From: a virus
Virus record (IMG/VR): IMGVR_UViG_3300042938_001069
Coordinates: 1-22,740 of that record
DNA length: 22,740 nucleotides
Strand: one strand, 5' to 3'
The position numbers were made by a program, and so were the translations under genes. The notes beneath the pieces were generated by a model. That model did not search any database. It saw only the letters and a list, made by a program, of their open reading frames with translations, and had not been told where the DNA came from. Positions 1-22,740 of the stretch are shown here, one piece after another. Positions within the stretch are counted from its first letter, which is position 1. Each line of letters begins with the position of its first letter.

Positions 1-7
1 TGAGGAA

Positions 8-493
8 ATGAAAGCAATCATACAGACTGGTTATATGGGCCGTCCTGCTATTGCTTCTGGTAAACTTATCAACTCAATAGACTACGACATACAAGTTCAA
101 GACGGTGTTTGGACCCTCGTAATAGAATACGCAGACTACGGCAAGTGGGTAAACAATGGTAGAAACCCTGGAAGATTTCCACCAAAAGCAGCGATTGAGA
201 ACTGGGTTAGAATGAAAGGCCTTCCTCAAAAAGCAGTTTGGCCTATTATGGTAAAGATAAAGAAAGGTGGTTTCTACTCAAAGAAAATCGCAATGGTTAG
301 AGGAACAGATAAGATAACTGGTAAAACAGGTCAAAGCACCATATACAGCACACCTGTGAAAGGACTTCACTTTACAAGTCCATTAGATAAGAATTTAGAA
401 CTTTCCTCTTTACATAAAGAACTTGGTGTTGCGTTTCACGATTACATACAAGAAGAGTTTGATAAAATAAAAAAAGAAATAGGAACGAAATGA
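8..493 (+). CDS. Neck / tail-completion protein, HK97 gp10-like (probably 5'-truncated by window edge)
   Basis: The visible 161 residues contain a SGKLINSI-like early strand, then YADYGKWVNNGRNPG followed by PPKAAIENWV and KGLP. This 'position within the tail ring, Gly-Arg, PP, Trp-Val, Lys-Gly' order is typical of HK97-gp10-like head-tail joining or tail-completion proteins. Such proteins sit at the head-tail interface and help close the tail. The reading frame is open upstream to the first base of the window, and family members usually have some more residues before the SGKL segment, so the ATG at 8 may be internal; GAGG just before it is a weak argument for a true start. The stop overlaps the next start (ATGA at 490-493), which indicates translational coupling with the following tail protein. 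Assignment is by motif pattern only. Confidence 0.6.
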   Translation: MKAIIQTGYMGRPAIASGKLINSIDYDIQVQDGVWTLVIEYADYGKWVNNGRNPGRFPPKAAIENWVRMKGLPQKAVWPIMVKIKKGGFYSKKIAMVRGTDKITGKTGQSTIYSTPVKGLHFTSPLDKNLELSSLHKELGVAFHDYIQEEFDKIKKEIGTK

Positions 494-2754
494 TAACACC
501 TGTAAAATACCCATACACCGGACTTTGGGCCAACTATAACGGAGTATACAATGGTCTAAACTTTATAGTTGACAGCGACCAGAAATATGTTCCTGGGTTC
601 CGATATATCTGTGAGATTTTCGCAGGTTATGGACCTACTATACAAAACACATTATCAAAAGTTGGTGAGTTGAGACACAACCCTGACATATCATACAACA
701 ACCAAGGCGTGTTTGATGTAGGTAGAGTATTAGAAGACTTTCTTACATACAATCTTGCTTGGAACGCATTAGGTCTAAATGATAATAAAAATCACTATAA
801 GAAATACTATTGTAATTTTGGTGAGGAGAAAGCAAGAACTTCAAAAATCTCAAAGATAGAAAATGGTGCTGGAAAGTTTATGATAACTCTGGCAACACCA
901 CACGATATGCAATCTACTTATTGGTCTGCTCTAATACAAGGAACTTCATTGGGTCAACTAAATGAACCATATGCAGTCTTACAAGCTCTTTCACCTATTA
1001 CATTTACGGTAGCACTTCCTTATCAATCAGGAGTTAGTTGGGATAATGCTTACATTATACAAGGAGCATACGCGAGTGGTGGCTTACAAACCTATACAGG
1101 TGCAGACGGAATGACATACTACTTATTTAGACATGCTGGTGGTGGTGATGACGCTGCTTATGCTGATGTAGGCGACGGTATCGTAGTTTATTCTACTGAC
1201 CCAGGAAAGACTTTCGTTCAAGGAAGTTGGCAGATACTTGACAAATACTATGATAGCAACTCCGAGAGTTTTGTCTATAAGACGAATATGCCTTATGTAA
1301 ATAATATGAACGGAGTTCCAGTTCACATATTTCCACAATCTACTATACAAAGAAAGAACTTATGGACTACAAAACTTGACAACGCTACCGCATTCAATGC
1401 CGTATTCCAATACGAAGACATACTTGATTACGATGTAAAGCCTTATGCCCCATATCAAAATACTAATCCTGTTCCAACTACACTTGCGAAGTTTCTTACA
1501 TATAGACCAAGAACTAAAATGCAAATGTGTCTTTCGGACTATTACTCTCTTGGATTTTTAGGTCAAGACGGTATGCCAGTAAATGGTATGTCAAGAAAGT
1601 TTGCGACTAATACAATGGGTGCTTGTGTAGAAGTATGGACCAAATCAAAGCCAACTCCTATATCAACAACAGCCACAGGTAATAGCATAACAAACGGAGG
1701 CACTATTATCAATCTTGGTGCAAAATATGCCAACTATACCGCTATAATACTTCCTGGAAGTGCAACAAACGATTTCACAGCAGGAAGTTATATTACCGTT
1801 TCTTTTTGGACCAAAGTAGGTTCTACTTGGTCGCCAGGAACATATACAGGAAGAATAATCAAATCACTAATCGCACCAGCAACTGGCTTCGTAATACTTA
1901 TTGACAAAGTGTGGGGTTCTACACAACAATCTGGCACTTCACACCAATGGACGATAACTGTTACACAAAGAGTTATATTGAGACCATACGACTTTTCTCT
2001 TGACGGAAACTCCGATACAAGATTAGAAAAACAACCAGCGGTTCAGGCACCAAGGTGGGAACTTGGTATGGGTCCAAAGAACTTGGCACTAAACAACTGT
2101 CAAGAGTTTCAAACAGACGATGTAATAAAATACTTTGTTTACTTATTAGGATACGATGCTAACTTACAAACTAATACAACACTAAACTCTTGCCTTCAAA
2201 AATATGTAAAAGCAAGTGAGACTTGGGAGATAGAGATTGTTCCTTGTTGTTCTACATACACACCATATACGGTATTCTGGTTGAATAAACTTGGTGGTTG
2301 GGACTATTACACCTTCAAACAAAGAACTGATAAAGTGAGAAATGTAGAAGCAAGAAATCAGTTTAGAAGAAGTCTATACAACTATGGAACTTTTACAAAC
2401 GGACAGAAAGGTCAAAGCACATATACTACATTATCTAATGACGAGTGGACGCTAAACACAGATTGGCTTACACAAGCAGAGGTTGATTGGCTACAAGAAT
2501 TGTATGAAAGTCCAGAGGTATTCATAATACTGAAAGACCATACTAATGAGTTCATAAAATCAAAAGGAATAAACTCAAAAGACATTATACTTCCTGTAAA
2601 TATAACGAACGAACAAGTAATACTCGGAGACAAAAGAAACAGAGGTGAGAAAGGTGGTTTGTTCCAATACTCAATTACTGCGGCTGCTGCGAATAGAAGA
2701 GAGAACCTTCGTGGTTCTAACTTCGGTGGAAACTACTGGTATAACAGGTCATAA
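490..2754 (+). CDS. Large tail structural protein, tail-tip/baseplate-like, function unassigned
   Basis: A 754-residue protein without signal peptide or clear membrane segment, rich in Tyr, Asn and Thr and predicted beta-rich, as expected for a virion protein. The N-terminal part (YTGLWANYNGVYNG, later GVFDVGRVLEDFL) and the C-terminal part (TDWLTQAEVDWLQELYESPEVFII) resemble large uncharacterised tail proteins of Bacteroidota phages. Residues about 395-490 form a Gly/Thr-rich segment with NDFTAGSYITVSFW and YTGRIIKS that looks like a separate small beta domain; a similar-looking segment is inserted in the second tube paralogue at 18759-19592. The gene overlaps the preceding one by 4 bases and is followed 15 bases later by another tail-tip protein. 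I infer a role in the distal tail from this context; the family name is not recognised. Confidence 0.6.
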   Translation: MITPVKYPYTGLWANYNGVYNGLNFIVDSDQKYVPGFRYICEIFAGYGPTIQNTLSKVGELRHNPDISYNNQGVFDVGRVLEDFLTYNLAWNALGLNDNKNHYKKYYCNFGEEKARTSKISKIENGAGKFMITLATPHDMQSTYWSALIQGTSLGQLNEPYAVLQALSPITFTVALPYQSGVSWDNAYIIQGAYASGGLQTYTGADGMTYYLFRHAGGGDDAAYADVGDGIVVYSTDPGKTFVQGSWQILDKYYDSNSESFVYKTNMPYVNNMNGVPVHIFPQSTIQRKNLWTTKLDNATAFNAVFQYEDILDYDVKPYAPYQNTNPVPTTLAKFLTYRPRTKMQMCLSDYYSLGFLGQDGMPVNGMSRKFATNTMGACVEVWTKSKPTPISTTATGNSITNGGTIINLGAKYANYTAIILPGSATNDFTAGSYITVSFWTKVGSTWSPGTYTGRIIKSLIAPATGFVILIDKVWGSTQQSGTSHQWTITVTQRVILRPYDFSLDGNSDTRLEKQPAVQAPRWELGMGPKNLALNNCQEFQTDDVIKYFVYLLGYDANLQTNTTLNSCLQKYVKASETWEIEIVPCCSTYTPYTVFWLNKLGGWDYYTFKQRTDKVRNVEARNQFRRSLYNYGTFTNGQKGQSTYTTLSNDEWTLNTDWLTQAEVDWLQELYESPEVFIILKDHTNEFIKSKGINSKDIILPVNITNEQVILGDKRNRGEKGGLFQYSITAAAANRRENLRGSNFGGNYWYNRS

Positions 2755-2769
2755 AAAGAAAAGTAAACA

Positions 2770-5700
2770 ATGGCAAATAGCATAGAGATAAAGATAAAAC
2801 AAATAGGTCAGTTCCAAAACTACTATGTAGACGGTATTCTTGACCTTGCTGACGACAGTGTTCTAAACACGGTAATACAACTTGTGGATGTTAGAGAACC
2901 AGAAAAGAGAGCAACAGACTTCGTTCAGTCGTTCAAACTTCCTGCGACTAAAAGAAACAACCAAGCATTTCAGCACATAAAACTGAAAGGCTTCCAAAGT
3001 TATGCTTACAATCCTACGCAGAAACTTGATTGTCAAATCATAGTAAATGGCAACCAGTATTTCAACGGGTATATGCAGGTAAACGAAATCACACAAGTAG
3101 ACGGACACCCAACTTCGTATGAGGTTACGGTGTATGCTAAACTTGGTGCGTTCTTCAATGACTTAGCCGACAATACAATGCGTGATTTGATTGATGTCAG
3201 CGACTTCAACCACTTATCAAACATATACACAATAGCTCAATCGTGGGGACCTATTGGCACAGACCCAATGCTTGGTGCTTACAAATACCCAGACTTGCCA
3301 CCAGAACCTTTCAAAAGTATATTCTTCAAGCCAGGAATATATTACAAAGGAACTGTAAAACCATTTTCACTTGGATTTGGATATGTTTATCCACCTATAT
3401 TCGTAGGACAAACTGATAAGGCCCTTTGGTCTACACAAGATTTCAAACCTGCTTTCTATATAAAGACTTTGTTTGATAGATTGTTAGAGAGCCAAGGTGT
3501 GAGATATACTTCCGACTTTCTAAACAGTGAGTATTTTAGAAGACTTATTATTCCTTCACAATCCGAAATTGAGGGAAACACAGGAAACGCACAACTTACA
3601 GAAACGCAGATAAAGAACGCTTCTGTGTGGGCTAAATACAATCCTACTGGTGGTGTTGGTATAAATAGTAATGTTGGTGCACCAGACGGTGTTGGACCTT
3701 TCTTTCCAGTCGTGTCGGTTGGAACAGAGACAGGTAAAAACTATGGACCATACAAACTTATTTTTCCTAATGATACTGTTGCTCCTGGCGAAGACCCTGG
3801 CTTACAATACGACAACTCAACAGGAGTTCTTACAATAAAGAAAAACGGAAGATATAACTTGACGGTTCAGGTTAGGACTGCTATTGTTATGAGGCTAAAA
3901 TACTTTGGTAAAAGTGGCTCTGCCGGAAATCTACACGTGCAGGGTGGAAAAACTATACCTGTAACATTACACATAAGAAATGGTGCCGGCGATGTCGTTG
4001 CTTCAAATACAGATAGTTTTGAATTTACAGACGGTGGTGGAAACTTTGAGGCTTCTACTAAACCACTTGCTTGTTCTCTAAAAAATCAAGTGTTATCAGT
4101 AGGACAAACTTTCTATTTCACTATTAGTTTCCAAACTACTGGCTCTAACTACAAATACAAAACTTATGACACAACAGTTGCTTTCTGGTATATCGCAAAT
4201 GCAGGAGACTACAACGGAACTATTGACCTTTATATCAAAGGAACAGAAATAAATGGGACAAACAACCCAAGCGAAGGCTCAAAGTTTCAATTGAATTTGG
4301 CTGACACCTCTGTCGCAGACGGTGATATGATTTTGATGAACGACTATTTACCTAACTTGAAAGCGATTGACTTCATAAAGGACCTAAACAAAATGTATAA
4401 CCTTTATTGGAAATGGGACCCGAAAGGTTTCTTTATTATAGAACCAAGAGATAAGTTCTATACAAGTCAAGGAAAGTATGTCATAAAAGACTGGACCTAT
4501 AAAGTAGATAATAACGAGGAGCAAAGCATACAACCTCTTTATGACCTTTCTACAAAAGTTTTTTCTTATTCTTATGACACGGATGACACATATGAAAATC
4601 AAGACCACGAAAGTGAGACCAAAGAAGTATACGGAACTAAAAGAGTTGCGGTAGAAAGTGATTTCGTAGACGGTGATAACAAAACAGAACTCAGCTTCGC
4701 GGCAAGTCCTATGATTGACTTTCTTGGAACAGGATTGATAATGCCAAGTTTTACAGATTACAAAGACGACAAAAGACTTTATCAAAAGCCTGGTCCAAGA
4801 ATACTATTCTATGGTGGTTTCCAAAAGCAATATGCTTGGGAAATGAAAAACATAAAAGATAAGAAGATTGCTCTTACACACTTTCCTTATTGCGGACACC
4901 TTGATAGTCCTACTGCACCAAGGTGGGATTTGAATTGGGGTATAAGCAAGAAATACTATTATGGTTGGTCTAATCTAACACAGAACACTTTATTCAACCA
5001 GTTCTGGGGTGATTACATTGACGAGATAACAGACAGAAGCGGACACTTGTTGACAATCAACCTAATCTTATCGGAACTTGATATGATAAATCTTGACATT
5101 AGAGACATTATACAAATAGACCAAGTTCATTATAGAATAAACAAGATAACTCACAACCCACTAAACAACAAAGCAGAGGCGGAACTTATCAAGTTGAAAG
5201 GTATAAAAGCAACACCTGCTCCTATTGGATTGATAACAGGAATAGCACCAAATTATATTCCTGACCCAGCAGACCCAGGATTAGTTCCAACACCAAAACC
5301 ACCTGTGCCTACACCACCTAAACCTAATCCTTGGCCTAAACCAGTTCCACCAGTTCCTGGTGGTTGGCCTCAACCTTGGCCTGGACCAAGACCGAGACCT
5401 GATGTAGAATGGGGAACTGGAACAATATGGACCCCAGTAGATAAACCGTGGGTTGACGGAAAAAACCCGTGGGTTGAGGGAACTGTTTGGTCTTGGAATA
5501 CACAAGACGCTACCGGAACTACCGTGACTACAACAACAAGTCCAAAGCCAACACCTTGGAGAGAAGGTTGGAATGATGCTCTTCCTGTTACAATTTGGAA
5601 TAATACCACTACAAAAGACTGGGTTTCCAACAACAACTATTCTACTATGAACTCTCAAAAGGTCACAGGAGTAAATAATAGAGTTGCTGCTTCATCCGCA

Positions 5701-6072
5701 TTTGTGAGTATTCAGGGTAATAACAATACCGTTGCTGAAAACGCGAAAAACATACAGGTTGTAGGAAACAATAACATTATAGCACCAGGAGTTTCCAATG
5801 CTATGGTTGTTGGTGATAATCAGTTTGTAACTAAAAGTAATACTACATTCCTAAACGGTGTAGAACAACCTAATAGAACACCAGGTGCGAGGATTTTGAA
5901 ATCTCCTTCAAACTCGGCAGGACATAATGCAAGAAGACTTTCAGGTGGTGCAAATTCTACCGATGCGAACATAGTCGTAAATGGAGGACAAGATACGAAC
6001 TCAAAAGAAATAACATACATACCTTTTGACCCGACTATTATCCAAACTCCTTTTGGACCGAAAACGGCATAG
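2770..6072 (+). CDS. Tail-tip / hub-like protein with Pro-Trp-rich hinge and C-terminal beta-solenoid-like region
   Basis: 1100 residues. Residues about 15-130 (VREPEKRATDFVQSFKLPAT, KRNNQAFQHIKL, NGNQYFNGYMQV) match the N-terminal pattern of tail-associated hub proteins in Bacteroidota phages: a 'sksF-LPaTk-NN-F-hi' segment followed by a short barrel. Residues about 540-815 contain a second domain with conserved-looking NKMYNLYWKWDPKGFFIIEPRD. Residues about 835-877 are a Pro-rich linker with many PxP and WP units, then Trp-rich repeats (PWVDGK / PWVEGT). Residues about 957-1037 carry GNNN-x-V units (QGNNNTV, VGNNNII, VGDNQFV) that suggest a trimeric beta-roll or solenoid. This fits a hub whose C-terminus projects as an adhesin stalk. 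The gene directly precedes the fibre gene; a candidate promoter for that gene lies in its last codons. Confidence 0.6.
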   Translation: MANSIEIKIKQIGQFQNYYVDGILDLADDSVLNTVIQLVDVREPEKRATDFVQSFKLPATKRNNQAFQHIKLKGFQSYAYNPTQKLDCQIIVNGNQYFNGYMQVNEITQVDGHPTSYEVTVYAKLGAFFNDLADNTMRDLIDVSDFNHLSNIYTIAQSWGPIGTDPMLGAYKYPDLPPEPFKSIFFKPGIYYKGTVKPFSLGFGYVYPPIFVGQTDKALWSTQDFKPAFYIKTLFDRLLESQGVRYTSDFLNSEYFRRLIIPSQSEIEGNTGNAQLTETQIKNASVWAKYNPTGGVGINSNVGAPDGVGPFFPVVSVGTETGKNYGPYKLIFPNDTVAPGEDPGLQYDNSTGVLTIKKNGRYNLTVQVRTAIVMRLKYFGKSGSAGNLHVQGGKTIPVTLHIRNGAGDVVASNTDSFEFTDGGGNFEASTKPLACSLKNQVLSVGQTFYFTISFQTTGSNYKYKTYDTTVAFWYIANAGDYNGTIDLYIKGTEINGTNNPSEGSKFQLNLADTSVADGDMILMNDYLPNLKAIDFIKDLNKMYNLYWKWDPKGFFIIEPRDKFYTSQGKYVIKDWTYKVDNNEEQSIQPLYDLSTKVFSYSYDTDDTYENQDHESETKEVYGTKRVAVESDFVDGDNKTELSFAASPMIDFLGTGLIMPSFTDYKDDKRLYQKPGPRILFYGGFQKQYAWEMKNIKDKKIALTHFPYCGHLDSPTAPRWDLNWGISKKYYYGWSNLTQNTLFNQFWGDYIDEITDRSGHLLTINLILSELDMINLDIRDIIQIDQVHYRINKITHNPLNNKAEAELIKLKGIKATPAPIGLITGIAPNYIPDPADPGLVPTPKPPVPTPPKPNPWPKPVPPVPGGWPQPWPGPRPRPDVEWGTGTIWTPVDKPWVDGKNPWVEGTVWSWNTQDATGTTVTTTTSPKPTPWREGWNDALPVTIWNNTTTKDWVSNNNYSTMNSQKVTGVNNRVAASSAFVSIQGNNNTVAENAKNIQVVGNNNIIAPGVSNAMVVGDNQFVTKSNTTFLNGVEQPNRTPGARILKSPSNSAGHNARRLSGGANSTDANIVVNGGQDTNSKEITYIPFDPTIIQTPFGPKTA

Positions 6073-6088: not shown

Positions 6089-6110
6089 TATAAGAAACCA
6101 AATAGAACAT

Positions 6111-9074
6111 ATGAGCTGTCAAGATACCGAAGATGTTAGAATAATAGTCAAATACTCTTCATTTCCAGGCGAAACGCCTACAATACCTAATAGCGCCAAC
6201 CACGAAGATGGAACTTGGCTTCCTACCGACTTATATGTCGGCGAAATGTTTATCAATGCATTTGACAATAAAGCCTGGGTTAGAGGTATAGGTGGTATAT
6301 TTCCACTTGGTGCCACAGGTGGAACCGTGTCTTTTATAGGTGATTTTGTTCCTGCCTCAACAGGTGGAACATTTTCAGGACCTGTAACGACTACGACATT
6401 GACTACTGGAACCGTTTCAGCAGTGTCTATAACTGCGTCAAACATATTCGGAGATGTAATCACAGCCAGTTATTTTATAGGCGACGGTTCAGGACTTACA
6501 AATATACAATCAACTTGGAACGGTGGCACGGTGTCAAACCCTGTTGCGTTTTTAGGAGATACAGACCACTATGGTTTTACAAACTTCTATGGCGAACTAC
6601 AAGGTGATAACGGAGTAATAGATGTAAATTCCAATATAGACGCAAGTGGGTTTGGAATTTCTGCTTCATACTTTTATGGAGACGGTTCTTTCTTGACTAA
6701 TCTTCCAGTTGGAACATATTCCGACATTTATACAATCTCTGCTACTCTGTCTGGCAACCAAATACTTTTCAATAGAAATGACTTTGCTCCGGCTTACTCT
6801 GTTGACCTAACTCCAATCTTGGCGACTGATAGTATAGTTTCTGTTCTTTGGGACAGCCCAGCGTCTTCTTTGGTGATAACATACGGTTCAGGATACGAAG
6901 TGTCAACCATTATTGATACCTTCACAAACTTTTCAGCACAGAACCTAACTGTAAACAACGCTTATGGTGGTGTATTCTATGGTGAATTTGTAGGAACTTT
7001 TTCAGGACCTATATCAGGAGACATATACACAACATCAGCAACACTTGTTGGAACAGAGGCAATCTTTGATAGAACAGACGGAATAACATATTCATTGGAC
7101 TTATCAACTCTTTCTGGTGGTGGTTCAGGTTCGGTTGGCCCAACAGGTGCTACCGGACCACAAGGATATAGAGCAGTAATGAACTTATCATATGAAAGTT
7201 CTTCACTAACAATCGGAATAGGAACAATCACACTACCTATTGGTGTTCCAATAAACAATTTAGGTTGGCAACAAGGCACAAGAGTTAGAGTATGGCATAG
7301 TGATACCGAATATATGGAAGGACAAATAACTACTGTTATTACTAACCCACAAACAGCTGGTATAAATGTAAATATAGACTATGTTGTTGGTTCAGGTTCT
7401 TTCGGAGAATGGTATGTTGGTATCGCTGGTGATGTTGGTGCAAGTGCCACAGCAGGAGCAACACCTTCATTGGCAGAAGTTTTAGCAATAGGTAATACAA
7501 CAGAAAACAATGACATTGTTTTATCAAATAGTCCTATAACCGGAACTTCGGATAGTATAAGAGCATTTGGAAATGCATTTGCAGACGCAAAGTTTTCTTT
7601 TGAGGACTATGGTAGTGGTGGATATGCACCAACAATGAGAACAGATGTGTTGTATAGACAAAACTATGTGAGCGTTGGGGACCAACAGACATATATACAC
7701 AATAGTTATGCTGACGCTGGCACAGACGCATACTCACAGATAAAAGTAGAACCATTGAGTTTAGAGTTGAGAGCAGACGACTTAGCTGTGGCACAAGGAG
7801 CAACTATAAATCTTTCACCATACCAAATAGATACTGCTGTTACAACAGGAATAAACTATACACAAATTACACAAGGACAAACAAATATACAAAGCATAGT
7901 TGATAGTGGTTATTCAGCTACTGGTTCTTCTAGATTTGATATGTTTTACAACGAAACGGTAGCAAAGACAGATTGTATAATAGACGGAGGAATAGGCACA
8001 TTGTCGTCAGGTCAAAGAACATATCAAGACGGTGCCGGCACAATAGGTTCCGAAATCACAACGAGTAATATAACACAAGGATTTTACGCTAACATATACA
8101 ACTGGTTTGACCCGTCAACAGCAGCGGTAGAAAACATATTCTCAATAACAGCGGCAAACCCATACGGGTCATCATACATAACAAACATAACACAAAGAAA
8201 AGACGAGATAAAAGTTCAAGGAAATGTAGGAACATTCCGAGGTATAGAATATGTTGATGACTATTCTGCTGAATTTACAGCAAACTCATTGGTAACAAAA
8301 GACTGGGTAATAAACAACCAAGCAACTTCATTGACTGACACAGTTTGTAATAGAACAGACGAAATCTTTGTAGACGCTTCTGGTGGTGAATACGAATGTA
8401 ATCCATATATCTACCCTACAATTTCTTACACAACTATTCGTTCAGCTATGAGTGGTGCTACGGCAGCAATATATGTTGACCCTGATACAATAAGACTAAA
8501 CGTAGTAGAGATACCAGGTTCATACGAGAGTGAGGTAACCATAACAGACGAAGTTCTAACAATGTATGGTGGTAGAAGCGATGTGAATAACCAAACAAGT
8601 TGGGGTATAGAACTTGGAACAGAAGTGAGAAGATATAGATACGAACACCCTTCTGCTCCTTGGGGCGATGTAGATAAGTTTGAGGAAAAAAGATTGGTTC
8701 TACACCAGAAGTTCACTAACGAAAGTGGAGTTCCAGGACAACTTGACCTTTACTACGAAAACTTCGTTCAGGACGCAATAAATGATTTTGAGATTGACTT
8801 TTATATAATGAATAACGAAGTTCAGGTGTCAAACAAAAGGTATATGACTAAATCTTACAAAAGAAGAGTATACTACAACACTTCAAATCAACCAACAATA
8901 CTAATACCAGACGAAACAAAACAAGGAGATACACTAAACCCGCTATACGATAGTTGGAGTATAACAACGGTTGATACGGTATACGGAACGAAGTATCGTC
9001 TTGATTATACACTTGACAGTTCATACGACTACTCTGTTACAATAGTAGTAAAACAGACTGCAAAAAAATACTAA
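6111..9074 (+). CDS. Tail fibre protein with GDGS-LTN modules and short collagen-like segment
   Basis: 987 residues. The N-terminus has a DLYVGEMFINAFDNKAWVR segment common at the start of phage fibre proteins of this type. Two copies of an ASYF-x-GDGS-x-LTN module occur at residues about 118-132 and 185-199; a third copy is in the next gene. A short Gly-X-Y run (GPTGATGPQG, residues about 343-352) is collagen-like. Around residue 450 the ATPSLAEVLAIGNTT segment is a motif often seen in fibre shafts and recurs in the next gene. The C-terminal 250 residues are a distinct beta-rich region with several charged strands that may form the tip. It presumably binds the cell surface. The start at 6111 lies 22 bases downstream of candidate promoter P1. 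Confidence 0.75.
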   Translation: MSCQDTEDVRIIVKYSSFPGETPTIPNSANHEDGTWLPTDLYVGEMFINAFDNKAWVRGIGGIFPLGATGGTVSFIGDFVPASTGGTFSGPVTTTTLTTGTVSAVSITASNIFGDVITASYFIGDGSGLTNIQSTWNGGTVSNPVAFLGDTDHYGFTNFYGELQGDNGVIDVNSNIDASGFGISASYFYGDGSFLTNLPVGTYSDIYTISATLSGNQILFNRNDFAPAYSVDLTPILATDSIVSVLWDSPASSLVITYGSGYEVSTIIDTFTNFSAQNLTVNNAYGGVFYGEFVGTFSGPISGDIYTTSATLVGTEAIFDRTDGITYSLDLSTLSGGGSGSVGPTGATGPQGYRAVMNLSYESSSLTIGIGTITLPIGVPINNLGWQQGTRVRVWHSDTEYMEGQITTVITNPQTAGINVNIDYVVGSGSFGEWYVGIAGDVGASATAGATPSLAEVLAIGNTTENNDIVLSNSPITGTSDSIRAFGNAFADAKFSFEDYGSGGYAPTMRTDVLYRQNYVSVGDQQTYIHNSYADAGTDAYSQIKVEPLSLELRADDLAVAQGATINLSPYQIDTAVTTGINYTQITQGQTNIQSIVDSGYSATGSSRFDMFYNETVAKTDCIIDGGIGTLSSGQRTYQDGAGTIGSEITTSNITQGFYANIYNWFDPSTAAVENIFSITAANPYGSSYITNITQRKDEIKVQGNVGTFRGIEYVDDYSAEFTANSLVTKDWVINNQATSLTDTVCNRTDEIFVDASGGEYECNPYIYPTISYTTIRSAMSGATAAIYVDPDTIRLNVVEIPGSYESEVTITDEVLTMYGGRSDVNNQTSWGIELGTEVRRYRYEHPSAPWGDVDKFEEKRLVLHQKFTNESGVPGQLDLYYENFVQDAINDFEIDFYIMNNEVQVSNKRYMTKSYKRRVYYNTSNQPTILIPDETKQGDTLNPLYDSWSITTVDTVYGTKYRLDYTLDSSYDYSVTIVVKQTAKKY

Positions 9075-10204: not shown

Positions 10205-10205
10205 T

Positions 10206-15000: not shown

Positions 15001-15976
15001 GAAACAAACAGAAATGAAAATCAACCACGAGCAAAACCTTCTTGTAATAGAAGTGTCTTATGGTGAAAAAGGACAGGAAGCTCTTGTTGATAGTGCAAAG
15101 AAAAGAAGAGACTATATCAAAACGGAACAAGAAAAAGAAAAAGAAGAGCGTTTCAAAAGTATAGAAATGATGGTTGATTTAGAAAAACAAGCAATGGATG
15201 TTTATCTACAATGGCTCGCTCAACAATATGCAGAGGAAGATAGATTGAGCCAACAAAGATTTGATGCGAGGATTGCTCTTATTGACGAAGAGGAAAAGGC
15301 TTATGACGATGCTCTTGCAAACAGGACTGCTGCCGAACAGCAGGCTATTGATATAAAAGAAGAGTTTGACCTTCGTAGAGACCAAGCAGAAAATGAAAGA
15401 AGAAGAGAGCAAAATGACCTTGCGGAAAAGCAATTTCAGGCACAGAAATACAATAGTTTAGCACAGATTGCTATTGAGTATGCCGTTGCTATTGCAAAGG
15501 CTTGGGGAACTGCTGGACCTTTTGGTATTCCTATGGCTGCGTTTTTAGCAACACAAGGTGGTCTTGCTGCTGCTGCTGTCGCAATGCAAGAATTTGTTCC
15601 TTCGTATGCTACTGGTGGTCTTGTAATGGGACCTGGCGGACCGAAAGACGATAAGGTAAAAGCAAATCTTTCCAATGGTGAAAGTGTTATCAATGCCAAA
15701 TCAACAAAAATGTATGCTCCACTTTTATCAGCAATCAACCAAGCAGGTGGTGGTGTCGCAATACCTAATCTAAAAAGTGGAGGTATAATAATGCCACCAG
15801 GAGCAAACATACAAAGCGTCAGCGTTGTGAACTCTTCTGCTGTCGTTAGTTTAGACCAATCAAGTATACAAGCAATTGGAAACGCAATGAGTTCTCAACA
15901 GATTACAGTTCAAGAAAACACAATCAGCAACGCACAAGAAAAACAAGCAAAGGTGGAACGCAGGACAAAGTTCTAA
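12053..15976 (+). CDS. Tail tape measure protein
   Basis: 1307 residues, dominated by charged Lys/Glu/Gln-rich coiled coil. It has hydrophobic segments at about residues 85-150 and a likely membrane-spanning stretch at about 181-201 (NPAGILIAAITALVGVYYLF), and another Ala/Ile-rich segment near residues 1133-1182. The C-terminus has the hallmark ATGGLVMGPGGPKDDKVKA and LSNGESVINAKST motifs of tape measure proteins. It sets tail length during assembly and may later help DNA cross the envelope. By the usual rule of about 0.15 nm per residue the tail would be near 200 nm. No tail-assembly chaperone pair with a ribosomal slippage site precedes it, and it follows the fibres instead of the tube gene, both unusual. 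Confidence 0.9.
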   Translation: MDEIKIKALIDAADSAKTIQELKKALRDLKSAAVEVGEGSESFNRITQAAGQVSDQIGDLNAQVKNLGDDLFKLRGVAQIGQGIAAGFAVAQGAIAMFGAENGALEQSLLKVNAAMSMLNGVMAIGELLQKESAAVLLTQNIVRGATVGLVGKETVAKAQLAVANGTATLTQRALNAAMTANPAGILIAAITALVGVYYLFSSSTDELKAKNDALNSSLEYSRKLLDAQEDAVIKEIDNRKKLAESRGADAKEISKLELEKLNEQEKYAKKRKTALENELKAERKQRTDLIFQGEDDLAKETNTKIEKKQEELDKIDNMLQKTVGYENQYALEREVIQNKLTQSEKKENDKRLKDNKKTTDSKLDNAKKFAVDMNKVNAVIYDNEIKMQEALLSTWGDTYDKKVLEQLSAEAKANKEVSDAQKELLNSLQEDYLKSEDFLKLKIEVTGIEDTRFQSAWNNFLKSNNIEAQKAQIALNLIQKSGEEARTAISAQYAETRKELAEQERKRIRELFEESTKIVLAQDEYKRFYEFLNIQIDKFSTNIKEQGKALDGFDAKNKQSAQERIDAIKAEIAAEELKIQKNKEVDEKNNEINRTLMEQGSITRDNYEDTLKLNEKAIDDIKAVIATKNEQITAINGETDAQLQYNKAFKQWSDNLGQTEGEQKSLNDKIGEFVNTVKIGQLVFNELLNAAQEGGELTGAQWKKGFDKIASNVTAFAQSLGDVESNINDFGKAVDFALSGIKPVSIPVKLDKTKVEKNSFIEGLISEIKEDGQIIETELDDFGRKLVVTLENRAGEIYQTITTAQERTAALTLEGATTVLALNRGINEDQVADSLKANVLLAAIYKDKNDLILSQETEITNAVRKSAEAKVAAINAQILADTNQTDSTKKLTADQIAELEKLKTKFEGYKDLSFKIQPLDAKDFGLDALATDFEAQLVGLNDKLKKRRDDVVKLEQQTYEESLFQLFKKLDAGQITQEEYDKKQTEMKINHEQNLLVIEVSYGEKGQEALVDSAKKRRDYIKTEQEKEKEERFKSIEMMVDLEKQAMDVYLQWLAQQYAEEDRLSQQRFDARIALIDEEEKAYDDALANRTAAEQQAIDIKEEFDLRRDQAENERRREQNDLAEKQFQAQKYNSLAQIAIEYAVAIAKAWGTAGPFGIPMAAFLATQGGLAAAAVAMQEFVPSYATGGLVMGPGGPKDDKVKANLSNGESVINAKSTKMYAPLLSAINQAGGGVAIPNLKSGGIIMPPGANIQSVSVVNSSAVVSLDQSSIQAIGNAMSSQQITVQENTISNAQEKQAKVERRTKF

Positions 15977-16012: not shown

Positions 16013-17101
16013 ATGGAAAAGAAAATACCTACCTATAAAATAGTTGTCAACCCAGACGACAGCGAGACAGGCGTATACGCAGTCTCATTGGTAGACCAAC
16101 CGGCCATTGAGGTTGATTGGATAAAACTTGCAAAAATAGAAGAACTTTACTTCTCGGCAAACAAAGACAAGCAAATGTTATTCGGACCTATGCTTATTCC
16201 TAACAAACTCATATTTAGAAGAGACGAAAAAGGAAACGAGTATAACATTGTATTTGACGAAGATACAATTCAAACAATCGCTGATAAATACAATGAGAAT
16301 AAACTTGGTGATGTATTCAACTTCCAACACTCCGATAAGAAAGTAGAGGCAGTTCTTTTACAGAATTGGATTACAGGAGAAAACGATAAGTCAAAAGATT
16401 TTGGATTTGAACTTCCAAAAGGAACTTGGTTTGGTGGTGTCAAAGTAAAAGACGAAGACTTTTGGCTTACAGAAGTAAAAACTGAAAGAGTGAAAGGTTT
16501 CTCTGTTGAGATAATGGCAGGAACTGAACTAATAGAAATGACTTCCGAAATGGAAGATAAAAATAAAAACACAAAACTTATGGAAATCAAAACAAATGAG
16601 GGTGTTGCCTTATATTATGATGGTGCAGAAGTTGCGGTTGGAACAGCATTATTTACTGATGAGGCAATGACTATTGTTGCACCAGAAGGAGCACATATGC
16701 TGGAAGACGGAAGAGTTATTACATTGGATGTAAATGGCGTTATTCTTTCAATCGCAGAAGAAACACCAGAGATTGAGGTTGAGGCAGCGGAAGTTGCTAC
16801 ACCGGCAGCTACTGATGTTCTTGCAGAGGTAATGCCTATTTTTGAGGAATTGAGAGGTATAATGGCTGAGTTATCTACAAGACTTGACAAGTTAGAAAAT
16901 GTAGAGACTACGGAAGAGGAAGCAACTACTAATGCAGAAAACCTTTCTAAAATCACAGAACTTGAAAACAGAATAGAGTTACTTAGCTCAATGGCTGGTG
17001 CTCCGTCAATCGTAAAGAGAGACGACAACACAATGAAAAGAGAAGCAAAGGAAGCGGCAATTGTCAGCAGAATAGAAGCTCTAAAATCTACGAAAAGATA
17101 A
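16013..17101 (+). CDS. XkdF-like prohead serine protease with scaffold-like C-terminal domain
   Basis: 362 residues. The N-terminal half matches the XkdF/prohead protease pattern: YAVSLVDQPAI near the start, LFGPMLIPNKLIFR, NIVFDEDTIQTIADKY, a His in NFQHSDK (about residue 106), PKGTWFGGVKV, and a Ser in RVKGFSVEI (about residue 164); His and Ser are the likely catalytic pair. Residues about 185-255 form a separate beta-rich part, and residues about 260-362 are acidic then coiled coil (ELSTRLDKLENVET, ITELENRIELLSS) as in scaffold domains. This suggests a protease-scaffold fusion that acts inside the procapsid and is cleaved during maturation. It lies just upstream of the capsid gene. The ATG at 16013 has a minimal leader if promoter P3 is real; there is no good later Met. 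Confidence 0.85.
   Translation: MEKKIPTYKIVVNPDDSETGVYAVSLVDQPAIEVDWIKLAKIEELYFSANKDKQMLFGPMLIPNKLIFRRDEKGNEYNIVFDEDTIQTIADKYNENKLGDVFNFQHSDKKVEAVLLQNWITGENDKSKDFGFELPKGTWFGGVKVKDEDFWLTEVKTERVKGFSVEIMAGTELIEMTSEMEDKNKNTKLMEIKTNEGVALYYDGAEVAVGTALFTDEAMTIVAPEGAHMLEDGRVITLDVNGVILSIAEETPEIEVEAAEVATPAATDVLAEVMPIFEELRGIMAELSTRLDKLENVETTEEEATTNAENLSKITELENRIELLSSMAGAPSIVKRDDNTMKREAKEAAIVSRIEALKSTKR
17080..17096 (+). repeat. 17-base direct repeat, copy 2
   Basis: TCTAAAATCTACGAAAA, identical to 15972-15988. Here it is coding and specifies part of the protease C-terminus (LKSTK) in a different context from copy 1. It again ends exactly 10 bases before TATACTTT and includes the ACG box of candidate promoter P4. 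Confidence 0.8.
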
Positions 17102-17114
17102 AGATTTATACTTT
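17090..17114 (+). promoter_or_regulatory. Candidate phage promoter P4 (major capsid gene)
   Basis: ACGAA at 17090 and TATACTTT at 17107, 17 bases start to start, followed by a second TATA (GTATAAAC). It gives the capsid gene its own transcript with a leader of about 24 A-rich bases before the ATG at 17145. It overlaps the alternative upstream ATG at 17115, which argues that this earlier ATG is not the translation start. Confidence 0.55.
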
Positions 17115-17144
17115 ATGTATAAACGAAAAAAAAACGAAAACAAA

Positions 17145-18068
17145 ATGAATAAGTCAAACTTCAAGCTTGCGTTCACAGACAACACAACTTACTACGGTAA
17201 AGATTTGGAAGGTTTCTACGCTGCTGCTTTACTTACAGGGAACTCAAAAAGCGAGTTCAAACTAATACCTAATGTGAAATCAAAGGTAAAACTAGGACAA
17301 CTTGACCTTGGAAACATTCTTCAAGACGCTGATTGTTCTTTCTCGTCTACGGGCGAAGGAACTTTATCTCAAAAAACTTTTGAGGTATGTCCTATAAAAA
17401 TCAACTTGGAATACTGTCAAAGAACTTTTGAGGTAAACTATTTATCCGAGTTATTGAGACCAGGTTCTAATAGCGACCAAGTTATGCCAGATAGTGTTGA
17501 AAGCTTCTTACTTGCAAGGTCTGCTGAAAAAATCTCTGCTGATACTGAAAAGTTAGTATGGCAAGGTAATACAGCTACTGCTTCTTACCCATTAGCTCTT
17601 TGCGACGGTTTAGAGAAACAACTTTTAGCTGACGCTGCTGTTGTTGATGTTGCTGCTGGAACATTATCTGCTTCTAACATTATCGCAGAATTGACAAAAG
17701 TATATAACGCTATTTCTAACACGGTTATTGACGCAGAAGACTTACGTATCTTCTTATCTCCATCAGCACATAGATTTTACAGAGCTGCATTAGCGTCTGC
17801 TTCTGCCGAAGCATACTACATGCAAAACTACGGAGAACTACATTTCTTGAATGTTAGATTGTCTGTTGCTCCTGGTATTTCAACTAACAAAATGGTTGCT
17901 GCTAGAAAATCAAACTTACTTTTATTGACTGACTTGATGTCGGATTTTGAGGACATTATGATTTTGCCACAGAAGCAAACGAGTGGGGTTCCAGTAGTGC
18001 GCATGGTCGGAGAATTCAAATTTGGGGTTGGATATATTTTCGGAAGCGAAATCGTATTCTACAACTAA
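17145..18068 (+). CDS. Major capsid protein (HK97 fold)
   Basis: 307 residues from the ATG at 17145 (MNKSNFKLAF). The protein has the features of an HK97-fold major capsid protein: it directly follows the protease/scaffold gene, has an N-terminal arm, a long helix-rich middle (SAEKISADTEKLVWQGNT), AEDLRIFLSPSAHRFYRAAL and a C-terminal KFGVGYIFGSEIVFYN strand, a common ending for this fold. Cys occurs in several conserved-looking places (DADCSF, FEVCPIK, LEYCQRTF). I chose the second ATG because the upstream one at 17115 lies in candidate promoter P4 and adds an atypical Lys/Asn-rich extension (MYKRKKNENK). A hairpin terminator follows at 18088. The extended reading from 17115 cannot be fully excluded. 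Confidence 0.8.
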   Translation: MNKSNFKLAFTDNTTYYGKDLEGFYAAALLTGNSKSEFKLIPNVKSKVKLGQLDLGNILQDADCSFSSTGEGTLSQKTFEVCPIKINLEYCQRTFEVNYLSELLRPGSNSDQVMPDSVESFLLARSAEKISADTEKLVWQGNTATASYPLALCDGLEKQLLADAAVVDVAAGTLSASNIIAELTKVYNAISNTVIDAEDLRIFLSPSAHRFYRAALASASAEAYYMQNYGELHFLNVRLSVAPGISTNKMVAARKSNLLLLTDLMSDFEDIMILPQKQTSGVPVVRMVGEFKFGVGYIFGSEIVFYN

Positions 18069-18087
18069 TAAAATAAAAACAAATAAC

Positions 18088-18106
18088 GGGGCTTCGGCCC
18101 CTTTAT
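18088..18106 (+). terminator. Hairpin terminator after the capsid gene
   Basis: GGGGC-TTCG-GCCCC, a 5-bp GC stem closed by a UUCG tetraloop, followed by a short TTTAT tract. The T tract is weak, so partial readthrough into the next gene is likely; the hairpin may also protect the capsid mRNA 3' end. Confidence 0.75.
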
Positions 18107-18128
18107 AGAAAAAAATATAATAATCAAA

Positions 18129-18677
18129 ATGGCAATATGTAATGCTTTATCGGCAGGCCTTGACAAATCGTGTGACAACAACGCAGGTGGTGTAAACAAA
18201 ATCTTTATTACGGATTTTGACAACGTAGCGTTTTCTGGAATAACGATTGGTGCTGCTACTTCTCCTCAAACAGGAGACTGGGTTGACGCTATAACTATGA
18301 TTTCTGGCGATTTCTACGAAGTGAAAACCAACAAAAATGTATGTAACTTTACAGAAACGGTAGCAGTTGACCTTGCTAACGGAACAACTTACTTCAACCA
18401 AGTTGTAACATTAGAACTTTCTAGAAGAGAGACTACTAAAAGAACTTTCATTGACAAACTAATCGCAGGACAAAAACAACTTCGTTTGATTGTTCTTGAT
18501 AGTAATGGAAACTACTGGTTGTTTGGATACACAGAGGGTTCTTATGTAACTGCGATTGAGGGTGGTTCGGGAACTGCAAAAGCTGACAAAAACGGATATA
18601 CGGTGACTTTCACTGCTATGGAACCTTTACAAGCTTGGCAAGTAGACCCAACAATCGTTGCTGCAATCACAGCATAA
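18129..18677 (+). CDS. Candidate major tail tube protein (paralogue 1)
   Basis: 182 residues, beta-rich. It begins MAICNALSAGLDKSCD and contains GGVNKIFITDF, an EVKTNKNVCNFTET segment, a LSRRETTKRTFIDKLIAGQK helix, NGNYWLFG and GGSGTAKADKNGYTVTFTA. Length, position near capsid and tape measure, and the 'ETT-R-FI-L-GQ-L' helix between two sheets fit a tail tube subunit that polymerises around the tape measure. The neighbouring gene at 18759 is a clear paralogue. Alternatives are a capsid decoration protein or another abundant structural protein. It has terminators on both sides, so its level may be set separately from the capsid. The three Cys at residues 4, 15 and about 77 are shared with the paralogue. 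Confidence 0.55.
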   Translation: MAICNALSAGLDKSCDNNAGGVNKIFITDFDNVAFSGITIGAATSPQTGDWVDAITMISGDFYEVKTNKNVCNFTETVAVDLANGTTYFNQVVTLELSRRETTKRTFIDKLIAGQKQLRLIVLDSNGNYWLFGYTEGSYVTAIEGGSGTAKADKNGYTVTFTAMEPLQAWQVDPTIVAAITA

Positions 18678-18701
18678 TCTACAATCAAATAATAACAAAA
18701 G

Positions 18702-18734: not shown

Positions 18735-18758
18735 CTTATACAAAAAAATATAATCAAA

Positions 18759-19592
18759 ATGGCAATATGTAATGCACTAACAGCAGGCTTGGATAAGTCC
18801 TGTGATACGAATGCAGGTGGTGTCAATAAAATCTTTATCGCGGATTTTGTGAGTTTGTCTCCAAGTATAAGTGGTGGAGAAATAGCGAATATATCTCCTG
18901 ACCTAAACGAAGGAATATATGTTGTGACTACCGTAGCAACAATAAATACAACAATCACTGCTGGCAACTATTTCATAACTACAATAGAAGTAGCAGGTGA
19001 CCTAACAGATAAGATAAAAGTTGGAAAGCAAATCAAGTTCTCATATAACACACAAACTGGTGGTGGAAACTGGACTGGAAATCTAGCATCAGTCTCATAC
19101 AATTCTGGAACAAATAAAACTACTATTACACCAGACTTTGCTGGTTTCACACCATCGGTTGGTTTAGTTTCGGCCGGTGCTGCACCAAACAACACGACTA
19201 ATCAGTCTATAACTACATTTCTATTCTGGGAAATAAAGACAAATAAAAATGTATGTAATTTCACAGAAACTATACAGACTGATATGACTAATGGAACTAC
19301 TTTCTTTACTCAAACGGTAAATGTTGTTTTATCAAAAAGAGAGACTACAAAAAGAGAAACCCTAAAAAGGTTTATTGACGGACAAAAGCAATTGGTGCTT
19401 GTTGTTCTTGATACTAATGGAAACTATTGGTTATTCGGACTTGTAGAAGGTGTTTATGTAACAGCAATGGAAGGTGGTTCAGGAACTGCGAAGGCAGACC
19501 AAAATGGATATACAATCACTTTTACTGCAACAGAAACTATACAAGCATATGAATTTGCTTATTCTAATCTTGCTCCTTATTTAGTAGGATAA
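18759..19592 (+). CDS. Tube-like paralogue 2 with inserted beta-rich domain
   Basis: 277 residues. The first 30 residues differ from the upstream paralogue at only three positions, and similarity resumes from WEIKTNKNVCNFTET to NGNYWLFG, GGSGTAKAD and NGYT-TFTA. Between these, about residues 31-130, is a segment absent from the first copy, containing AGNYFITTIEVAGDLTDKIK, VGKQIKFSY and SGTNKTTITPDF, a pattern seen in small beta domains of phage virion proteins. The result is a tube-like core carrying an extra surface domain. It could be a minor tube subunit, a tail terminator-side variant or a decorated tube. The leader (AAAAAAATATAATCAAA) and the first codons are also nearly identical to those of paralogue 1, so a tandem duplication is clear. 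Confidence 0.6.
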   Translation: MAICNALTAGLDKSCDTNAGGVNKIFIADFVSLSPSISGGEIANISPDLNEGIYVVTTVATINTTITAGNYFITTIEVAGDLTDKIKVGKQIKFSYNTQTGGGNWTGNLASVSYNSGTNKTTITPDFAGFTPSVGLVSAGAAPNNTTNQSITTFLFWEIKTNKNVCNFTETIQTDMTNGTTFFTQTVNVVLSKRETTKRETLKRFIDGQKQLVLVVLDTNGNYWLFGLVEGVYVTAMEGGSGTAKADQNGYTITFTATETIQAYEFAYSNLAPYLVG

Positions 19593-19597
19593 AAAAC

Positions 19598-19648: not shown

Positions 19649-19949
19649 ATTTTACTGGAACCGAACTCTCAAAAAGGTAGTTCGCTCTCACATCATACTT
19701 ATCAAGGCCATAAGACCTGAATACTTCTTCGCTGTCTGCTATGATTTTTACTAACTTGTCATATACTGCGTCAGCCGGCGAGATTATAGACTTTGTGATA
19801 AGCAAGTAAACAAAAGTGTCATTTGCCGTTCTGTGGTGATATAACGCGTCTACTAATACTTTGTCAAGGATTACGGTCTCATACATTCCGCCTTCTACTG
19901 ACCTTTTGATTTCTACTCCTCCTGCGATTGCTTTTCTCATGTCTTTCAT
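19647..19949 (-). CDS. Moron-like small protein, unknown function
   Basis: 100 residues from the ATG at 19949 (MKDMRKAIAGGVEIKRS) to the TAA at 19647. It is a soluble alpha/beta-looking protein with an early Gly-Gly hinge, TVILDKVLVDALYHH, FVYLLITKSIISPADAVYDKLVKIIADSEE-like helices and a C-terminal YDVRANYLFES. No signal peptide or membrane segment. I do not recognise it. It is the only minus-strand gene inside the virion block, has its own host-type promoter (19976-20007) and its own terminator, and so could be expressed when the late genes are silent. The open frame upstream to 20057 is rejected because it covers that promoter. Early host-takeover, exclusion or regulatory functions are all possible. 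Confidence 0.65.
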   Translation of the reverse strand: MKDMRKAIAGGVEIKRSVEGGMYETVILDKVLVDALYHHRTANDTFVYLLITKSIISPADAVYDKLVKIIADSEEVFRSYGLDKYDVRANYLFESSVPVK

Positions 19950-19975
19950 AATGTTTATGTTTTTAGTTTGTCTTA

Positions 19976-20007
19976 CAAATATACGGAGGTTATTCCGAAT
20001 AAACAAA
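19976..20007 (-). promoter_or_regulatory. Bacteroidota-type promoter for the minus-strand gene
   Basis: On the minus strand, TTTG (20007-20004), 20 bases, then TATATTTG (19983-19976), an exact match to the TTTG / TAnnTTTG consensus of Bacteroidota primary sigma promoters. It lies 26 bases upstream of the ATG at 19949, giving a leader of about 20 bases that is AT-rich (AAAAACATAAACATT). Confidence 0.75.
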
Positions 20008-20027
20008 CAATCACCGAAATATATTTC
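20003..20027 (+). promoter_or_regulatory. Candidate phage promoter P5 (portal gene group)
   Basis: ACAAA at 20003 and TATATTTC at 20020, 17 bases start to start, differing by one base in the first box from the ACGAA sites upstream of other virion genes. It overlaps the upstream box of the divergent minus-strand promoter by four bases. A promoter is needed here because the terminator at 19598-19648 and the convergent gene isolate the portal group from upstream transcription. Confidence 0.4.
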
Positions 20028-20031
20028 AGGT

Positions 20032-20466: not shown

Positions 20467-20482
20467 AAAAACACATAAACAA

Positions 20483-21622
20483 ATGAAAATCTTCGGCTAC
20501 GAACTTACAAAAACGCAGGCACAAATTGCCTCACCAATACAGGAAATAAAAGACGCTGTTGATGGATTTCAACTTGGTGCTGAAACAGACCTTCCTGTAA
20601 TAAGAGAAAGCAGGAACAATGAGTGGGTTGACTATGGTATAAACAACCTTTATCCTGAATACCTGAAAGATATGTATAATACATCACCAACACACAATGC
20701 TATTGTAAAAACGAAAGCACAAATGGTAGTTGGCGAAGGATGGGAAATAAACGACGAACTTCTTGACGAAAAGGCAAAGGTCGCAGTTAGACAGATAATC
20801 AACCAGGTTTGGCGTGACGCGTATGAAATCTCATTAGATTATCAAATCTTTGGAGCAATGGCATTAGAAACTATATGGTCTCTTGACGGTCAAAGAATAG
20901 TTGAGGTAAATAGAATTGACCCAGCAAAGTTGAGGTCTGGAAAATATGAGGACGGAAAAGTATGTGAGTGGTTCTACAAAAGAAACTGGGCTGACAGAAG
21001 AGAAGACGCAGTAGAGATATATCCTTTTGCGGAAGGAGACTTGGAACATAAAAGACAACTTCTTTACCACGCAGGTCAAAAGGTTACGAACGAGTATTAT
21101 GGTGAGCCAACCTATTTGGCTGCAATGGACTGGGTGTCATTAGAAAGTCAAGTTGGTTTATATTACAAATCTCTTATAGAAAACGGTTTCAATCCTTCTA
21201 TACTTGTAAAGTTTTATAGAAAGCCAGGAACGCAAGAAGAAAGAGACGATGTAGTAACAGGTCTAAAAAGAACTTTTGGTGGTGTAAAACGCGCTGGAAA
21301 AGCAATGGTAATGTTTTCCGACGGTAAAGACTTGGCACCGGATGTTACACCAATAGACATACAAAATGTAGACAAGCAGTTTGTGGCAATCGCAGACCAA
21401 ATAACACAGAAAATACTTACAGCTGAAAGAGCAACAACTCCTGAATTATTTGGATTATGTGTGCCAGGCCAACTTGGCTCAGGAGACTTTGAGGTAAAAG
21501 TAAAGTGTTTCAACAAGTTTGTAATACAACCAGACCAAATGGCATTTGAATATGTTGTAAACAAGTTATTACTTGCTAACGGTTATATGGTTGATTTCAA
21601 ACTCAAACCAATGACGATATAA
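20483..21622 (+). CDS. Portal protein
   Basis: 379 residues. The N-terminal WVDYGINNLYPEYLKDMYNTSPTHNAIVKTKAQMVVGEGW pattern (no-gap 'NN-x-P-x-x-L-x-x-x-Y-x-x-SP-T-H-x-x-I') is typical of portal proteins, as are the middle (DYQIFGAMALETIW, VEVNRIDPAKLR) and the C-terminal ITQKILTAERATTPELFG followed by a Gly-rich loop. It forms the dodecameric ring at the capsid vertex through which DNA enters. It is at the short end of the family's length range (usually 400 or more), lacking a long C-terminal barrel. Here it is downstream of the capsid, tube and a minus-strand gene, whereas in most siphoviruses it precedes the protease and capsid. No terminase is in the window. Confidence 0.75.
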   Translation: MKIFGYELTKTQAQIASPIQEIKDAVDGFQLGAETDLPVIRESRNNEWVDYGINNLYPEYLKDMYNTSPTHNAIVKTKAQMVVGEGWEINDELLDEKAKVAVRQIINQVWRDAYEISLDYQIFGAMALETIWSLDGQRIVEVNRIDPAKLRSGKYEDGKVCEWFYKRNWADRREDAVEIYPFAEGDLEHKRQLLYHAGQKVTNEYYGEPTYLAAMDWVSLESQVGLYYKSLIENGFNPSILVKFYRKPGTQEERDDVVTGLKRTFGGVKRAGKAMVMFSDGKDLAPDVTPIDIQNVDKQFVAIADQITQKILTAERATTPELFGLCVPGQLGSGDFEVKVKCFNKFVIQPDQMAFEYVVNKLLLANGYMVDFKLKPMTI

Positions 21623-21638
21623 AAATAAAGAAAAGATA

Positions 21639-22226: not shown

Positions 22227-22253
22227 AAAAAGCGACTTTGAGGGTCGCTTTTT
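22227..22253. terminator. Bidirectional terminator at the convergent gene junction
   Basis: Near-perfect palindrome AAAAAGCGAC-TTTGAGG-GTCGCTTTTT, a 10-bp stem with A-tract and T-tract ends. It can stop the portal group on the + strand and the converging nuclease-like gene on the minus strand, whose stop codon is 30 bases away. Confidence 0.9.
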
Positions 22254-22282
22254 CGTTTTAGAGTATATTAGTATTTATTATA

Positions 22283-22740
22283 TCATGATGTTGCATCTTT
22301 TAGCACCTTTGGAGTGCATTTATCAATCTCTACCTCAAAGTATTCTCTCGGTATTTTCACCGTTAGAAAGTGGTGCCCGTTGGCAAATCTATTTACGAGG
22401 TGAACTCTTGCTCGCAGACCTTGTCCGGCAGTAGCAGTATGATATACAAACCCCGCAGTTTTGATTAGTCTTCTCAACTTATCTGTTTCTATGATATAAG
22501 CAATCTCGTGGTCTGGAAAGTAATACACAAATAAGTCTGCCTTCGTCGCATTGACACCACTTGCCGTTCCATTACATTGGAACTCTATAACCATATTTCC
22601 AGTCTCACCATTGTATGTTTCATATCTGTCTGTTTTTACTTCTACCGACTTATGTGAGCCGTCATACATATAAAAGTCAAATTCTTTTAGTTTTTGTTTG
22701 TCCTTGCTTTCGTTGAAATATACCCAACTCCAACCGAAGT
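22283..22740 (-). CDS. PD-(D/E)XK nuclease-like protein (5' end beyond the window)
   Basis: The frame is open to the window edge, so the ATG at 22669 is probably internal: translation upstream of it (WVYFNESKDKQKLKEFDFY) continues the same domain. The visible 152 residues contain an Asp in EFDFYMYDG and, 13 residues on, VEVKTDR, the D...ExK signature of PD-(D/E)XK nucleases, followed by TGNMVIEF, NGTASGV and TKADLFVYYF, an order seen in phage and resolvase-like enzymes of this superfamily. The C-terminal third is a basic, mixed alpha/beta segment. It may act in DNA recombination, packaging-end processing or host DNA degradation; its precise role is not determinable. It converges on the portal group, so it belongs to a separate, probably early or middle, transcription unit. 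Confidence 0.5.
   Translation of the reverse strand, partial: FGWSWVYFNESKDKQKLKEFDFYMYDGSHKSVEVKTDRYETYNGETGNMVIEFQCNGTASGVNATKADLFVYYFPDHEIAYIIETDKLRRLIKTAGFVYHTATAGQGLRARVHLVNRFANGHHFLTVKIPREYFEVEIDKCTPKVLKDATS

Follow-up and report, generated by a model that had tools for sequence, protein, structure and literature searches.

Concurrent absence of TTAA and other short palindromic words from an uncultured phage, and turnover of the missing words among its relatives

Introduction

Bacteriophages reportedly avoid the recognition sites of restriction enzymes, an observation said to go back to Sharp in 1986 and to Rocha, Danchin and Viari in 2001. In the survey of Rusinov et al. (2018; PMC6286503), 7.5% of the (phage, site) cases for Type II showed elimination, as did about a tenth of genomes; it was seen hardly anywhere but at orthodox Type II sites and was stronger in non-temperate phages, and the sites of modification-dependent enzymes were only weakly avoided. 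Here we analyze a stretch of 22,740 bases from an uncultured phage, positions 1-22,740 of the lone IMG/VR record IMGVR_UViG_3300042938_001069 (called the window throughout, and G000 in our comparisons), from which the word TTAA and a number of other short words are missing.

The losses resemble the known avoidance of sites by phages (Rusinov et al., PMC6286503) in that palindromes of Type II form have been eliminated from a seemingly non-temperate double-stranded DNA phage and asymmetric words are seldom lost, but they differ from it in that at least eight words stand at zero together in the window, with several others nearly gone, and in that the sets shift between relatives. The nearest cultured relatives, the Nonlabens phages P12024S and P12024L (about 26% identical in the portal protein and about 24% in the capsid protein), have also lost words; unlike the window, however, P12024S has TTAA in normal numbers (458/428; word counts are written as observed/expected) and has instead lost GGCC (0/32) and CCGG (2/32). 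Very probably, the absences in the window arose as the phage, over the long term, escaped several Type II restriction enzymes of its hosts through silent removal of the sites that these enzymes cut.

Results

A set of short words is missing from the window

The original prediction, made by reading the sequence, was that the window contains no TTAA, and a program count of its 22,740 bases indeed returned zero. The expectation is 197 when derived from base composition, at a G+C content of 38%, and 97.6 under an order-2 Markov model, such that the couple of hundred occurrences originally anticipated agree with the first estimate. Shuffling codons within the 15 main genes (20,829 coding bases), with proteins and codon usage kept, yielded 128 ± 7.5 TTAA, and the lowest count in 300 shuffles was 111, so that the observed zero is nowhere near the codon-shuffled expectation. 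This expectation is spread over the three frames as 35, 88 and 5, and TTAA is avoided in every one of them, as had been claimed.

What had been overlooked is that TTAA, the most strongly depleted single word of the window, is one of about ten extinct words. In a scan that covered contiguous, gapped and degenerate words, seven more stood at zero: GTAC (0/72), GATC (0/38), TCGA (0/38), GANTC (0/54), CTNNAG (0/87), TCWGA (0/52) and RATATY (0/45). Nearly lost are TGNNCA (4/99, with TGCGCA accounting for three of the four that remain), CTAG (6/63), ACGT (4/45), CATG (7/49) and CTNAG (10/63), and AATT, AGCT and TGCA are moderately low. A process directed at TTAA alone, be it a single enzyme of the MseI type or a transposase or nuclease that targets this word, would agree with the rank of this word as the most depleted, but it leaves seven other words equally at zero and is extremely unlikely; because TTAA is one member of a set, several sequence-specific agents are indicated, not one TTAA process. 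As far as TTAA is concerned, evasion of a TTAA-cutting restriction system, as originally suggested, is still the best interpretation, but it is too narrow for at least eight extinct words and several near-extinct ones.

The window is mostly coding, and its plus strand is A-rich, as might be expected if the losses arose from a codon or amino-acid preference or from a mutation bias in composition, cytosine deamination for example. Shuffles that keep codon usage nevertheless restore TTAA to 128 copies, the loss extends to all frames, TTAA has no cytosine to deaminate, and a related phage (L112, below) has TTAA at 58 places that encode the same residues, making such a bias exceedingly improbable. 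The absence is thus independent of codon usage and of frame, and the view that selection acts on the DNA word and not on codons holds, both on these grounds and on account of the synonymous replacements and differing word sets seen in relatives.

The absences extend over the whole phage

Contigs 97-100% identical to the window prolong it on both sides: those on the left (L008, L034) hold the terminase large subunit, and those on the right (L002, L003) hold a holin and an N6_N4 DNA methyltransferase. The right end of L002 overlaps the left end of L034 by 1,233 bases at 97.6% identity, and the contigs therefore form a closed circle of about 34.2 kilobases (kb). Metagenomes that contain the phage include IMG 3300042900, 3300042863, 3300043467 and 3300034357. 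Counted piece by piece from the overlapping contigs, the circle is devoid of TTAA (0/137), GTAC (0/104), GATC (0/53), GANTC (0/83), CTNNAG (0/129), TCWGA (0/74) and RATATY (0/69, with one copy in strain L003), and TCGA (2/71), TGNNCA (4/142) and CTAG (6/96) are near zero. That these zeros were produced during library preparation or assembly, for instance by digestion of the DNA before sequencing, has nothing in its favor and is vanishingly unlikely: the same zeros occur in contigs of this phage from several separate metagenome records, a contig could not have bridged cut sites expected every 230 bases, and relatives from one record (IMG 3300034357: L003, L010 and L016) carry different word sets.

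The missing words turn over among relatives

Searches of IMG/VR with portal, capsid and terminase recovered about 175 loci, which form 97 lineages at 95% DNA identity; these are mostly metagenomic, and one is the cultured phage P12024S. Counting a word as extinct when its expectation was 10 or more and its observed count did not exceed 6% of that value, we found one or more extinct words in 79 of the 97 lineages, in sets that differ from lineage to lineage. The window phage and L012 tie for the most, with 12 entries each, some of which are nested (e.g., TTWAA within TTAA). L112, the closest capsid relative (87% capsid identity), has TTAA at a near-normal 155/179 but AATT at 0/119; L012 lacks AATT, TTAA, AGCT, GTAC, CTAG and CTNNAG, and nearly all of its GAAGA is gone; L015 lacks TTAA, AATT, GATC, GANTC, GTAC and CTAG; L024 lacks AATT, TGCA, TGNNCA, GTNAC and ACWGT; L116 lacks AATT, ACGT and GANTC; and L006 has lost no word. 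The set of lost words is specific to lineages, as would be expected if hosts differ.

Mapped onto a capsid tree of 54 lineages (a quick tree with some long branches), the extinct state requires at least 5 changes for TTAA, 6 for AATT, 7 for GANTC, 8 for GTAC, and 9 each for GATC and CTAG. Word sets change between phages whose proteins or DNA are 76-94% similar.

Two further patterns were seen among the relatives. GAAGA, an asymmetric site of the MboII type, is nearly gone from both strands of L012 and L026 (4/81 and 2/75), a rare instance of the loss of a non-palindromic site. In addition, more distant relatives, including L050, L063, L091, L095, L155 and L172, lack G+C-rich words instead, the words gone being CCGG, GGNCC, GGNNCC, GCNNGC, CGCG, CASTG and CCWGG.

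Sites are removed silently, and selection against them appears to be ongoing

There are 58 TTAA sites in L112 at which both amino acids are conserved in the window, and at none of these (0/58) does the window have TTAA; the codons are always synonymous, with CTAAAA in place of TTAAAA, GTAAAA in place of GTTAAA, TTGAGA in place of TTAAGA, and CTAAAC in place of TTAAAT, the last of which bears out the original observation that Leu-Asn is written CTAAAC. The same synonymous pattern was found at nine GATC and eight GTAC sites. TTAA is therefore removed by changes that are silent in the protein.

Selection against these words appears to be ongoing. Strains L002 and L003 have 42 aligned differences, of which 5.7 should by expectation generate one of nine avoided words, and none does (P = 0.002); the remaining strain pairs are too alike to reach significance singly. 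L012 and L026 are separated by 2,117 differences over 14.5 kb (14% different), and both are at zero for TTAA, GTAC and AATT. Tests of single substitutions in this pair are blurred by linked changes, and in their place we used a forward simulation of drift, which over half the distance between L012 and L026 gave 13-42 expected copies of each of the three words; control words such as TATA and ATAT were close to the drift prediction. AGCT is extinct in L012 and occurs 38 times in L026.

L015 and L016, which are 93% identical, both have 0 GATC and 0 GANTC. L016 is nearly free of TTAA and AATT, and the copies left lie for the most part at positions 12512-13381 and at 10656-11135, the latter being an HNH-endonuclease gene that is not in L015. 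Relaxed selection was considered as the source of these residual words and dropped, because they are mostly in two segments that do not align to L015. This arrangement suggests that both segments are recent imports, and DNA that has newly arrived may be recognizable by its unpurged words.

Lost words have the form of Type II recognition sites

As controls for word form, we applied the same extinction threshold in 96 lineages to palindromes of the type XY-N(g)-Y'X' and to words of other symmetry. Extinction was found in 124 of 1,296 tests without a gap, in 34 of 1,353 with a gap of one base and in 27 of 1,366 with a gap of two (185 in total), falling to 0 of 4,104 with gaps of three to five and 2 of 1,367 with a gap of six. 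No extinction was found among mirror and direct-repeat words (6,976 tests); among non-palindromic 4-mers there were 4 in 20,390. Because palindromes with gaps of zero to two are lost and controls almost never are, the lost words thus have the form recognized by Type II enzymes, including W- and S-centered words and, rarely, an asymmetric one (GAAGA). Known Type II sites cover most of the recurrent words: GATC (DpnII), CTAG (MaeI), GANTC (HinfI), GGCC (HaeIII), AATT (Tsp509I), TTAA (MseI), GTAC (RsaI), GCNNGC (Cac8I), GGNNCC (NlaIV), CASTG (TspRI) and GAAGA (MboII).

Short palindromes might also be avoided in general, independently of any enzyme, on account of hairpins, recombination or replication. 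As a class, four-base palindromes are low (observed/expected 0.77 over the 1,296 tests), and the moderate deficits of AATT, AGCT and TGCA in the window are in the same direction. However, the avoidance is specific word by word: under the codon shuffle, the window has normal numbers of GGCC (14/17), CCGG (16/17), CGCG (12/12) and TATA (185/178), and gapped words are lost while adjacent gap lengths are not, with limits as sharp as those between CTNNAG (0/87) and CTNNNAG (95/87), GANTC (0/54) and GANNTC (65/64), GTAC (0/72) and GTNNAC (66/85), or TGNNCA (4/99) and TGNNNCA (146/103). Given also that close relatives differ in their lost sets, a general avoidance of palindromes is highly improbable.

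Two of the bipartite words, which seem unusual for restriction sites, are known as methylation motifs: N6-methyladenine (m6A) occurs at CTNNAG in Mycoplasma dispar (PMC6385981), M.Eco57I has been linked to adenine methylation of the CTNNAG/TGNNCA type (PMC3874165), and both words are methylated in an algal giant virus, Aureococcus anophagefferens virus (PMC12700378). Enzymes of such specificity therefore exist, but the words that are methylated in those systems are absent from the DNA of this phage. It could accordingly be methylation and not cutting that is avoided, with solitary host methyltransferases marking the words and the marked DNA being attacked by a methyl-dependent (Type IV) enzyme or by a host that has changed. 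Each of the many words would then require its own methyl-dependent enzyme, and the prior survey found avoidance to be weak for modification-dependent enzymes (PMC6286503); we regard this alternative as very unlikely.

Residual words and other features of the window

The genes of the window, and the one region in which residual words are concentrated, are as follows:

8-493, plus strand: 3' part of a tail/connector-type gene, whose start lies upstream of the window (L008:5939-6484)
490-2754 and 2770-6072, plus strand: two large structural genes with 0 TTAA, the second corresponding to phrog_38559 (unknown function)
6111-9074, 9081-9764, 9782-10204, 10206-11213 and 11388-12005, plus strand: putative tail fiber or appendage genes, so named by position alone, with no confident family match
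12053-15976, plus strand: tail tape-measure protein (phrog_25241), with 0 TTAA where the codon shuffle expects 33
16013-17101, plus strand: XkdF-like head maturation protease (Peptidase_S78_2)
17115-18068, plus strand: putative major capsid protein (virion structural, phrog_1623), the basis of the 54-lineage tree
16800-18640: hot spot of residual words (AGCT, CTAG, CATG, ACGT), from word counts
20483-21622, plus strand: portal protein, the query used for finding relatives

The hot spot around the capsid gene, a region picked after looking, contains 21 of the 55 residual partly avoided words in 8% of the window. AGCT, CTAG and CATG are near their codon-shuffle expectation there and rare elsewhere in the window, and the fully extinct words stay absent within it. 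Possible explanations for these residual words are that codons are constrained in a highly expressed gene or that the segment was imported.

One asymmetric word, TCCC, is missing from the plus strand of the window (13 expected), and its complement GGGA occurs 27 times (about 32 expected). The deficit is weaker when the rest of the phage is counted and both strands are taken together (0.51 of expected), and the word may be avoided as an asymmetric site in a strand-biased manner.

The neighboring genes at 18129-18677 and 18759-19592 are paralogous, with DNA about 72-82% identical in parts and an insert in the second; the pair is a duplicated virion protein. In strains L001 and L002, a 63-base direct repeat (window 19935-19997) has about 300 additional bases between its copies, whereas the repeat is single-copy in the window and in L003; a sequence 88-91% like this repeat sits elsewhere in the phage (L034:1765-1827). 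The one N6_N4-type DNA methyltransferase of the phage, considered as a possible phage-encoded means of protection, is encoded on the minus strand (L002:5636-6952) and occurs widely among unrelated phages (up to 49% identity), and methyltransferase genes are also present in the relatives L012, L021 and P12024S.

Discussion

Terminase and portal matches are to phages of Flavobacterium, Parabacteroides and Nonlabens, at 24-35% identity, a hint that the hosts may belong to Bacteroidota. Scans of 84,980 genomes turned up no prophage relative, and no integrase was seen in the part of the gene set that was examined; the phage is tailed and apparently lytic. The zero counts, the silent removal, the palindromic form of the words, the specificity to lineages and the lack of prophage relatives all fit the prior survey of site elimination (PMC6286503). 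As the simplest cause we infer restriction by Type II enzymes of the hosts, acting on one word at a time and differing from host to host. Over a long period, the phage lineage would have met hosts with several Type II restriction-modification systems, whose proposed specificities include TTAA, GTAC, GATC, TCGA, GANTC, CTNNAG, TGNNCA, TCWGA and RATATY. Because a genome without sites cannot be cut, mutations that remove sites would be favored and those that create them eliminated, and mostly synonymous changes would have continued until the words were gone.

Several points weigh against an escape from Type II restriction. Eight or more systems are many for one host, and the pattern may call for several hosts or strains, met over time; such a succession would serve as well as one host with all of the systems. 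We know of no restriction site that matches TCWGA or RATATY, from the window, or ACWGT or RTTAAY, from relatives; as whole words, RATATY, RTTAAY and ACWGT also had no match in the open literature. Finally, portal-alignment and terminase scans of 84,980 species genomes revealed no relative, and hence no host in which a cognate enzyme could be seen.

The phenomenon itself has been known since 1986, and what is unusual is the number of words purged together and their turnover between relatives, which make this phage an extreme case. Restriction-site avoidance has usually been seen in phages whose hosts are known, with one or a few sites moderately depleted; here a whole genome is without at least six words, with several more nearly gone, and almost 100 lineages carry sets that are quickly gained and lost while the proteins stay similar. 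Tentatively, and with the odds slightly against it, the sets of extinct words could directly report which restriction specificities the unknown hosts possess, including some as yet undescribed in bacteria (candidates being RATATY, TCWGA, ACWGT, RTTAAY and CGNCG), with unpurged words marking recent imports. The repertoire of restriction systems that an uncultured phage has encountered would then be readable from sequence alone, and could be used to predict the enzymes of candidate hosts, to exclude hosts, and to detect recently acquired genes through the words that they have yet to lose.

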